From the NCBI RefSeq assembly GCF_002214505.1, contig NZ_CP015103.1, forward strand, positions 434,001 to 498,000: a DNA stretch of 64,000 nt, written 5' to 3'. A program made the translations under genes and the position numbers. Below, piece by piece: positions 51,355-53,313 of this stretch. Under the pieces are notes generated by a model. The model saw only the letters and a list, made by a program, of their open reading frames with translations. It was not told where the DNA came from and ran no database searches. Source of the DNA: Thermococcus siculi (lineage in GTDB: Archaea; Methanobacteriota_B; Thermococci; Thermococcales; Thermococcaceae). The first letter of the stretch is position 1. The number at the start of each line of letters is the position of its first letter.

Positions 51355-51798
51355 TCATATGTCCTCTAGACTTTGGATTGTTTTGAGGCCGTGTACTCGC
51401 TTAAAGTCATCATCAAAAGTCGCCAGCATTGGAATCCCATAAAAACTGCAGGTGGAAGCAATTAATGCATCGTTAGGCAGAAGCATGCTGTTTTCAATGT
51501 AGTGTCTAGATTCTTTAACTATGTCTGAATTCAAGTCGAGGATTTTAAAGACTGAGAACAGTTCAAAAACGGGTTCTAAATCAAGCTTGGAGAGAGTTTC
51601 CGGGTGTTTTTTCAGTTCATATGATTTCATCCCTGTGTTAGCTTTGATGTAAAAGAAAAGAACTTCGGATGTCACTATGGGGTTGATAAAGCCATTGATC
51701 ACCCCATCTTCAGCTGCTTGGACTAGGGCTTTTGCCTTGCTTATTCCACTTAAGTGGTATATCAAAACGTTTGAATCAAAGAAGACGTTACCACTCAT
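51355..51798 (-). CDS. vapC: VapC-type PIN domain toxin
   Basis: The 147-residue protein has the PIN ribonuclease pattern: N-terminal FFDSNVLIYHL with the first Asp, a central VTSEVLFF with Glu, and a C-terminal NDALIASTCSFYGIPMLATFDDDF carrying the remaining acidic residues. Such proteins cut RNA, often tRNA, when freed from antitoxin. It overlaps the antitoxin gene by 11 nt, the normal VapBC arrangement. The pair is more AT-rich than the surrounding backbone. Confidence 0.88.
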   Translation of the reverse strand: MSGNVFFDSNVLIYHLSGISKAKALVQAAEDGVINGFINPIVTSEVLFFYIKANTGMKSYELKKHPETLSKLDLEPVFELFSVFKILDLNSDIVKESRHYIENSMLLPNDALIASTCSFYGIPMLATFDDDFKRVHGLKTIQSLEDI

Positions 51799-51976
51799 CT
51801 TCTATCTCCTCAATAATCCTGTCGACATCCTCTTTCTTCAGTTTTACGATTCCAAAGGTTTTTTCTGATACCCTCTTTGGGATGAGCCTAACGCTGACTT
51901 CCGTGCCGTTCGGTAGATTAAGCTTTTTCTTGAGCTTGAGAACGCCATTTTCGTAGACTGCCTCAACAACTTCCAT
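51788..51976 (-). CDS. vapB: VapB-type antitoxin (DUF104/AF2212-like)
   Basis: The 62-residue protein matches the archaeal AF2212-like antitoxins: VVEAVYENGVLKLKKKLNLPNGTEVSVRLI, then a charged tail that would wrap the toxin (EDVDRIIEEIEDEW). It is the first gene of the pair and should repress the operon with the toxin. Confidence 0.88.
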   Translation of the reverse strand: MEVVEAVYENGVLKLKKKLNLPNGTEVSVRLIPKRVSEKTFGIVKLKKEDVDRIIEEIEDEW

Positions 51977-52033
51977 ACTCTCACCGGTTGGGGGTACTCA
52001 CTTTTCCTACAAAACACTTTCGCACCCAAAAAC

Positions 52034-52158
52034 TTTAAATCCTCCTTCCCCCTTTCTCTCCCCATGCGCGGTGGTCGCTTTTGGCCCTGGTAAAGCCGAC
52101 CTCTTCTTGACCGCCTTAGTCTGGAGTTTCGTTTCCACTGGAACCGGAGGTGCTTTGA
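52034..52158 (+). promoter_or_regulatory. trpS promoter and structured leader
   Basis: A TATA element (CTTTAAAT, 52034-52041) places transcription start at about 52062-52066, at the ATG of a leader peptide. Inside the leader, GGTCGCTTT (52073-52081) can pair with AAAGCCGACC (52092-52101) with one bulged C, leaving a 10-nt loop TGGCCCTGGT. ACCTC (99-103 of this kilobase) can also pair with GAGGT of the trpS ribosome binding site (52147-52151), so the two pairings share bases and compete. The leader also holds a 14-base ORB core at 52131-52144. Confidence 0.55.
52064..52093 (+). CDS. Candidate Trp-rich leader peptide of trpS (MRGGRFWPW)
   Basis: ATG at 52064 opens a nine-codon frame that ends at TAA 52091-52093 and encodes Met-Arg-Gly-Gly-Arg-Phe-Trp-Pro-Trp. 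Two of nine residues are Trp, the amino acid used by the enzyme encoded 65 nt downstream. The predicted transcription start falls at the ATG, so translation would be leaderless. Both Trp codons lie in the loop of the leader hairpin. A regulatory role in sensing charged tRNA-Trp is inferred from composition and position only. Confidence 0.5.
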   Translation: MRGGRFWPW

Positions 52159-53313
52159 ATGGACGACTTTAAGGTCACCCCATGGGACGTTGAGGGTGTT
52201 GTGGACTACGCGAAGCTGATAGAGCAGTTCGGAACCAGCCCGCTGACGGACGAGCTTATAGAGAAAACCGCTCAACTAACGAAGAGCGAACTCCCGATAT
52301 TCTTCAGGAGGAAGTTCTTCTTTTCCCACAGGGACTACGACAAGGTTTTAGCCGACTACGAGGCCGGAAGGGGATTCTTCCTCTACACCGGCAGGGGCCC
52401 GAGCGGTCCGATGCACATAGGGCACATTATCCCCTTCTACGCCACCAAGTGGCTGCAGGAGAACTTCGATGTCAACCTCTACGTCCAGATAACCGACGAC
52501 GAGAAGTTCCTCTTCAAGGAGAAGCTGAGCTTCGACGACACGAAGAGATGGGCCTACGATAACATCCTCGACATCATAGCGGTCGGCTTCGACCCGGACA
52601 AGACCTTCATCTTCCAGAACAGCGAGTTCACGAAGATATACGAGATGGCCATTCCGATAGCCAAGAAGATAAACTACTCGATGGCCCGCGCGGTGTTCGG
52701 CTTCACCGACCAGAGCAAGATTGGGATGATTTTCTACCCTGCCATACAGGCTGCTCCTACCTTCTTCGAAAAGAAGCGCTGTTTGATTCCGGCGGCTATC
52801 GACCAGGACCCCTATTGGAGGCTCCAGAGGGACTTCGCTGAAAGCCTGGGCTACTACAAGACTGCGGCGATACACAGCAAGTTCGTGCCGGGTTTAACCA
52901 GCCTCAGCGGAAAGATGAGTGCCTCGAAGCCGGAGACGGCCGTTTACCTCACAGACGATCCGGAAGAGGCGGGCAAGAAGATATGGAAGTTCGCTCTCAC
53001 CGGTGGGAGGGCGACGGCAAAGGAGCAGCGCGAGAAAGGCGGAGAGCCTGAGAAGTGCGTCGTCTTCAAGTGGTTCGAGATATTCTTTGAACCAGACGAC
53101 GAGAAGCTGATGGAGCGTTACCGCGCCTGTAAGAGCGGAGAGCTTCTCTGCGGCCAGTGCAAGCGCGAGCTGATAGAGAGGGTCCAAAAGTTCCTCAAGG
53201 AGCACCAGGAGAGGAGGAAGAGGGCCGAGAGGGAGATAGAGAAGTTCAAGTACACCGGCGAACTTGCTCAGGAGCAGTGGGATAAGGCTATTCCTGAGGC
53301 GTTGAAGGGCTGA
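52159..53313 (+). CDS. trpS: Tryptophanyl-tRNA synthetase
   Basis: This class I synthetase charges tRNA-Trp. The 384-residue protein has the archaeal/eukaryotic-type N-terminus, the HIGH motif in TGRGPSGPMHIGHIIPFY (about residue 80), a central AIDQDPYWRLQRDFAE region and the KMSAS signature in SLSGKMSASKPETAVY (about 254), then a C-terminal helical domain with a CxxC (LLCGQCKRE). The ATG follows GGAGGTGCTTTGA. No other trp gene is nearby. Its leader encodes a Trp-rich peptide. Confidence 0.95.
   Translation: MDDFKVTPWDVEGVVDYAKLIEQFGTSPLTDELIEKTAQLTKSELPIFFRRKFFFSHRDYDKVLADYEAGRGFFLYTGRGPSGPMHIGHIIPFYATKWLQENFDVNLYVQITDDEKFLFKEKLSFDDTKRWAYDNILDIIAVGFDPDKTFIFQNSEFTKIYEMAIPIAKKINYSMARAVFGFTDQSKIGMIFYPAIQAAPTFFEKKRCLIPAAIDQDPYWRLQRDFAESLGYYKTAAIHSKFVPGLTSLSGKMSASKPETAVYLTDDPEEAGKKIWKFALTGGRATAKEQREKGGEPEKCVVFKWFEIFFEPDDEKLMERYRACKSGELLCGQCKRELIERVQKFLKEHQERRKRAEREIEKFKYTGELAQEQWDKAIPEALKG

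Follow-up and report, generated by a model that had tools for sequence, protein, structure and literature searches.

A candidate +1 frameshift element sensing charged tRNA-Trp upstream of trpS in Thermococcus siculi, with related cassettes at other amino-acid genes

Hungry-codon frameshifting has reportedly been under study since Gallant's group. On frameshift products of this kind that are specific for starvation, the 2016 review by Atkins states that 'no examples are known' (PMC5009743), and the sole archaeal programmed frameshift listed in a 2021 review is the -1 event of fucA1 (PMC8211752). Among described systems, a close counterpart of the locus analysed here is prfB, the gene for release factor 2, with which it shares a Shine-Dalgarno (SD)-like hexamer, a 3-nt spacer and a CTTT (rarely TTTT) slippery site (PMC12421855), together with a short zero-frame ORF and a slow A-site codon whose decoding needs the gene's own product. 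A search of the open-access literature found no prior report of frameshifting with aminoacyl-tRNA synthetases, Thermococcales or trp genes. To our knowledge, no +1 programmed frameshift has previously been described in a cellular archaeal gene. The cassette presented below reads as a variant of programmed +1 frameshifting in which a sense codon takes the place of the stop codon.

The window, a 64,000-nt stretch of the T. siculi genome (a single contig of 2.03 Mb), contains trpS preceded by a short leader frame (Table 1). Rereading of the window gives ATG CGC GGT GGT CGC TTT TGG CCC TGG TAA for 52064-52093. The earlier note was therefore correct in sequence and coordinates when it placed a Trp-codon frame, MRGGRFWPW followed by a stop, 65 nt before the trpS ATG (52159), and the downstream gene is confirmed as TrpRS by NF008924. 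A TATA-like TTTAAA at 52034-52039 stands about 30 nt 5' of the leader ATG, and the CTTTAAA of the trpS promoter is almost unvarying in an alignment of 30 genomes. Given archaeal promoter geometry, transcription is thus expected to start near the leader ATG; the trpS transcript would be leaderless or nearly so, with its 5' end near 52064, and the MRGGRFWPW frame itself is probably leaderless. Divergent from trpS on the minus strand lie a PIN-domain gene and an AF2212-like gene (51355-51798 and 51788-51976), a VapBC-like toxin-antitoxin pair that is missing 5' of trpS in many relatives, whose match to the leader region starts at the promoter. The sequence GGAGTTTCGTTTCCACTGGAA (52123-52147), which we take to resemble an origin recognition box (ORB), recurs in relatives beside an orc1/cdc6-looking gene and upstream of a triosephosphate-isomerase-like gene, and the inverted repeat TTTCCACTGGAA is also part of an ORB-like sequence beside an origin-recognition gene.

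Table 1. Features of the trpS leader region, in window coordinates
Feature	Position	Strand	Basis
Promoter element, A-rich BRE and TATA-like box (CCAAAAACTTTAAA)	52027..52040	+	Alignment; archaeal promoter anatomy
Zero-frame leader ORF, MRGGRFWPW-stop	52064..52093	+	ATG in frame with TGG in 92/92 trpS cassettes counted
Internal SD-like GGTGGT	52070..52075	+	3 nt 5' of the slippery codon; GGTGRN in 92/92 trpS and 14/14 trpC cassettes
Putative slippery TTT-T	52079..52082	+	[CT]TTT in 106/106 trpS and trpC cassettes counted
Putative hungry Trp codon TGG (A site)	52082..52084	+	TGG in all trpS, trpC and trpB2 cassettes
+1 frame, GPGKADLFLTALVWSFVSTGTGGALNGRL-stop	52083..52172	+	Crosses the trpS SD and trpS start; TAA at 52170-52172
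Inverted repeat TTTCCACTGGAA, conserved	52132..52143	+	Directly 5' of the trpS SD; alignment
trpS ribosome-binding site GGAGGTG	52146..52152	+	Kept in the 30-genome alignment
trpS, tryptophanyl-tRNA synthetase, 384 aa	52159..53313	+	NCBIfam NF008924, 742 bits against a cut-off of 644

By DNA search, nearly every congeneric genome of good quality was found to have the leader. The pattern ATGNNNGGTGRTNGYTTTTGG, scanned with 0-2 mismatches permitted, was matched in 58 of 61 congeneric genomes, mostly by a single and exact match, and it stood before trpS wherever this was checked. Pattern scans of the T. siculi genome itself returned 32 and 11 matches, with the full architecture present only before trpS. 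The 30-genome alignment shows that the ATG, the GGTG, the TTTGG that includes the first Trp codon, and the trpS SD are all kept, conservation of the leader start codon and first Trp codon being far above chance. The second Trp codon is variable (e.g. MPGDCFWP and MQGGRFWRS, each followed by a stop). When 128 distinct trpS upstream regions were considered, the cassette was found in 92, always in the order ATG, GGTGRN, 3 nt, YTT, TGG and a close zero-frame stop, the last falling 1-6 codons past the slippery codon. The regions without a cassette belong to distant archaea, one contig end and two loci with a longer start-to-site distance. Taking these leaders together with the trpC cassettes described below, GGTGRN at -9 to -4 and a TTTT or CTTT slippery site are present in 106 of 106. 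In the window GGT, TTT and CTT are minority codons (15% of Gly, 24% of Phe and 16% of Leu codons, respectively), yet their choice in the trpS and trpC cassettes counted is exceptionless. The genomes are related, so the leader counts do not represent independent events. A TTG-started frame (MALVK..SSAPP-stop) that appeared conserved in some Thermococcus was rejected because it is broken in others (e.g. MA-stop).

The earlier note had read the leader as a device of competing hairpins in which the translation state of the Trp codons governs access to the trpS ribosome-binding site. The more general form of this idea is classical leader-peptide attenuation, whereby stalling on the Trp codon refolds the RNA around the ribosome-binding site with no frameshift. 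Such a scheme would fit a short frame with one or more Trp codons preceding a Trp gene, an arrangement shared with bacterial trp leaders, and folding of the leader RNA does leave the trpS SD partly paired. The hairpin formed by GGTCGCTTT and AAAGCCGACC is indeed present in this genome, but just 2 of 30 relatives can form all nine pairs and most lose the central ones, while the ACCTC held to mask the ribosome-binding site occurs in only 4 of 30 relatives, which speaks against that masking. Folding at 37, 60 and 80 C did not yield clearly distinct ON and OFF states around the trpS SD, and the leader matched no T-box or other Rfam family, even at E <= 5. Alignment across relatives therefore upholds the ATG and the first Trp codon, and not the second Trp codon or the stem; a regulatory Trp-codon leader is supported by the comparison, but the hairpin device proposed to act through it is not. 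In most trpS leaders, moreover, there are no more than two Trp codons. Stalling on its own would leave unexplained the invariant slippery YTTT, the SD-like element at fixed spacing, a +1 frame that in five gene families stays open as far as the gene start, and the location of TrpS and TrpC in that frame. Since the same cassette precedes trpC, trpB2, ileS and leuS, a hairpin private to this genome cannot explain it, and we consider attenuation very unlikely.

The reading frames instead suggest a +1 shift. Past the TGG, the +1 frame is open in every trpS cassette counted and in each of the 77 distinct Thermococcaceae leaders it reaches or crosses the trpS start, with its stop at -21 to +25 nt relative to the VTPW codon, whereas the -1 frame closes mostly well upstream. 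The +1 peptide is unconserved in amino-acid sequence and lacks third-position bias, which implies that it is only the openness of the frame that is kept. Spacing is constrained: YTT and the trpS SD GGAGGTG are separated by 58, 61, 64 or 67 nt in all but one of 30 leaders, and the ATG-to-motif distance changes by whole codons only. On a pause at the Trp codon, a +1 slip at TTT-T-GGC would place the ribosome in a frame with no stop codon before or within the trpS ribosome-binding site; a shortage of Trp should accordingly raise, rather than lower, expression. The direction of control, which had earlier been left unsettled, would thereby be settled by the frames themselves.

Distant archaea retain GGTGR-N4-YTTTGG and an in-frame ATG despite an altered leader peptide (MTGDLLWP, MPSGDVFW, MGEYLWL, MGGYLW and MAGGSLWTAQKQ, each followed by a stop). 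In 15 of these distant trpS leaders the +1 frame is fused in frame to TrpS itself, as in VTSFGPDLKEGNRMSLNQEFRVTPWE. Several metagenome-assembled genomes (MAGs) labelled Thermoproteota or Crenarchaeota carry a TrpS 74-78% identical to that of Thermococcus, with the cassette fused in frame; these may reflect gene transfer or mislabelled bins.

Matches of the pattern elsewhere than at trpS pointed to trpC, with which the trp operon begins. TrpC was matched in 15 Thermococcaceae genomes and the cassette is present at 14 of the loci; the fifteenth, which encodes the most divergent TrpC (65% identity), has no recognisable cassette. In all 14 cassettes, the start codon opens a frame of the form MGDGFW..stop or MTGDGFW..stop (e.g. 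MGDGFWIEQGY and MTGDGFWPEQGN, each followed by a stop) and TrpC itself lies in the +1 frame. The zero-frame start is usually equipped with an SD 6-7 nt 5' and the zero-frame stop follows 3-10 codons after the slippery codon. An inverted repeat, TGGACA-N8-TGTCCA, situated about 60-70 nt 5' of the trpC leader corresponds to the published Tar operator (PMC6737238).

An enzyme encoded in the +1 frame might also be reached by ordinary initiation, if that frame used a start codon of its own (the GTG within GGTG, or the ATG within GTGATGG in trpC) and the zero-frame ATG were incidental. The +1 frames of trpS and trpC do begin with GTG (e.g. VVAFGPG.. and VMAFGLSR..), from which TrpC and the distant TrpS proteins could be annotated. 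However, every cassette has its zero-frame ATG or GTG in frame with TGG, the SD of trpC (GGTGA-6 nt-ATG) is spaced for the zero-frame start and not for the +1 starts, and neither the nearby zero-frame stop nor the match between codon and amino acid would be accounted for. The ileS and leuS cassettes described below bear on the same question.

The leaders of trpB2, which encodes a TrpB-like enzyme, contain 2-3 cassettes in series in 36 of 37 cases. One example, with > marking a +1 shift at TTT/TGG, reads MMVRSDCF>GFEGRFSSPGIAVRRDCF>GADMRGDCF>GRALLSLK...EEVLE-stop. Each zero frame ends soon after its shift site, and the final +1 frame overlaps the trpB2 start as ATGA. For leaders with three sites, only (+1,+1,+1) of the 27 possible shift combinations is open (29/29, compared with 0-1 for the others), and (+1,+1) is open in 7/7 leaders with two. 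A -1 control is passed by 0-1 of 37 leaders, and shuffles that keep the cassettes pass in a mean of 6.5 and a maximum of 13 cases against the 36 observed, a test in which the start giving the most +1 shifts was chosen, introducing a mild bias. The trpB2 leaders fall into 14 clusters below 72% identity. If each site acts as proposed, the triple cassette would form a natural series gate.

Cassettes with a different A-site codon precede two further synthetase genes. In this genome, ATGAGGGGGGAGTGTTTTATC is found upstream of ileS and ATGAGGGGGGAGTGTCTTCTC upstream of leuS, both near-invariant across relatives. The ileS cassette has TTT-ATC, with an Ile codon, in 47 of 47 distinct leaders and the leuS cassette has [CG]TT-CTC, with a Leu codon, in 50 of 50; relative to the gene start, the +1 stop lies at -4 to +22 and -15 to +23, respectively, in all leaders. 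The SD-like element in ileS, leuS and trpB2 cassettes is the purine-rich AGGGGGGA. The fourth slippery base also differs, being TTTA in ileS and [CG]TTC in leuS as opposed to YTTT in trpS and trpC, and re-pairing in the +1 frame is imperfect for ileS (UUU A) and for 15 of the leuS leaders (GUU C). A +1-frame start codon inside the cassette is found in 0 of 47 ileS leaders and 1 of 50 leuS leaders, nor does one occur in trpB2 cassettes 2-3. The open +1 frame of ileS and leuS is therefore not accounted for by initiation within the cassette, and internal GTG initiation is rejected as a general explanation. Taken with the trpC evidence, this makes ordinary initiation extremely unlikely.

The A-site codon matches the gene throughout: Trp in trpS, trpC and trpB2, Ile (ATC) in ileS and Leu (CTC) in leuS. 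This correspondence provides the strongest evidence that tRNA charging is the sensed signal. It also weighs upon a third alternative, in which a conserved RNA or DNA element, such as a protein-binding site or an initiator, merely resembles coding sequence. That proposal would suit the nucleotide-level conservation of GGTG and YTTTGG as well as the ORB-like repeat nearby, but it does not predict that the ATG-to-motif and YTT-to-SD distances should move in steps of three, nor that the A-site codon should switch between Trp, Ile and Leu according to the gene. Only decoding explains whole-codon spacing together with a gene-matched codon, and a non-coding element is scarcely credible. No similar leader was found in this genome before serS, proS, thrS, glyS, hisS or metS. 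Upstream of valS lies a conserved leader of considerable length, in most Thermococcus with an inverted repeat, GGTGGTGCC/GGCACCACC, that is perfect; no cassette could be defined in it, and it may be a different device, possibly of a structural kind.

We propose, with a probability of about 0.88, that the trpS leader is a programmed +1 ribosomal frameshift element which senses charged tRNA-Trp at a 'hungry codon'. From the anatomy, frames, conservation and codon-gene match observed, we infer slippage, its dependence on tRNA charging and a subsequent coupling step, as follows. The ribosome would initiate at the 5' ATG and translate MRGGRF. With ample Trp-tRNA-Trp, TGG would be decoded and termination would occur two codons on at TAA, leaving trpS unreached. 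When Trp-tRNA-Trp is scarce, owing to low Trp or low TrpRS, the A site would stand empty at UGG; during the pause the upstream GGUGGU would pair with the anti-SD of 16S rRNA, and the P-site tRNA-Phe would move from UUU to the overlapping UUU, such that reading goes on in the +1 frame. In Thermococcaceae trpS, ileS, leuS and trpB2, ribosomes in the +1 frame would then cross the SD of the gene and stop at or near its start codon, and this arrival would favour translation of the gene by coupling. Translation of the +1 frame may perhaps also prevent FttA-dependent transcription termination on naked RNA, although the source presents the connection of FttA with lost coupling as a hypothesis (PMC11616081). 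For trpC and the trpS of distant archaea, the +1 frame is the enzyme itself. In each case, starvation would lead to higher expression of the downstream gene. The trpS gene has a strong SD of its own which allows for basal initiation, and frameshifting would thus not be obligatory in Thermococcus. The GGTG lies 5 nt from the P-site codon, as compared with the 5-6 nt that commonly separate GGTG from a start codon, and the SD-like element is therefore at about normal initiation spacing and is not compressed as in prfB.

It is very probable that trpS, ileS, leuS, the trpC operon and trpB2 of Thermococcales are gated by 1-3 +1 frameshifts, each at a codon specifying the amino acid that is sensed. 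This would amount to a new, general class of control by amino acids, with the ribosome itself gauging tRNA charging. With the same confidence, we extend this reading to trpS of several other archaeal lineages, where a starved ribosome would likewise slip into the productive frame. If correct, this would be the first known case in nature of hungry-codon frameshifting being put to use. The presence of the cassette in five gene families, each with a gene-matched stalling codon, makes the question directly testable. It would also demonstrate archaeal amino-acid sensing without a T-box or attenuator, extend the principle of prfB from stop to sense codons and offer portable amino-acid-responsive switches. 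Gene annotation would be affected too, since TrpC and some of the TrpS proteins would in truth begin with trans-frame sequence.

Comparison with known systems helps to place the cassette. The frameshift of Saccharolobus fucA1 differs in its -1 direction, its A-AAA-AAT heptamer and its product, a sugar-degrading enzyme, with no amino-acid sensing involved. Tar (TK0271) acts on the same Thermococcales trpC operon, but it is a DNA-binding transcription activator and would operate before and besides a translational cassette; the text of the paper describing it makes no mention of attenuation (PMC6737238). The yeast Ty1, ABP140 and EST3 sites (CUU AGG C) share a P-site CUU slip at a slow sense codon and a +1 codon of the GGC type. 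In those eukaryotic examples, however, the codon is slow on account of a rare tRNA rather than starvation for the gene's own amino acid, and there is no SD. With trp-type attenuation the cassette has in common a short leader ORF containing codons for the regulated amino acid and charged tRNA as the sensor, but it has a single critical codon and no conserved, mutually exclusive hairpins, and its readout would be the reading frame instead of RNA folding around a terminator. In prfB the product is encoded in the +1 frame, just as it is for trpC (14/14) and the 15 distant trpS genes, whereas in Thermococcaceae trpS, ileS, leuS and trpB2 that frame closes where the gene begins and does not encode the product. 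The cassette and prfB differ further in host, the cassette being archaeal and serving at least five genes, in the less compressed register of its SD, and in their sensors, which would be charged tRNA in one case and is the release factor in the other. Moreover, the A-site codon of the cassette is a sense codon (TGG, ATC or CTC) where prfB has UGA followed by C, and on this basis the cassette would work like prfB without being a prfB element.
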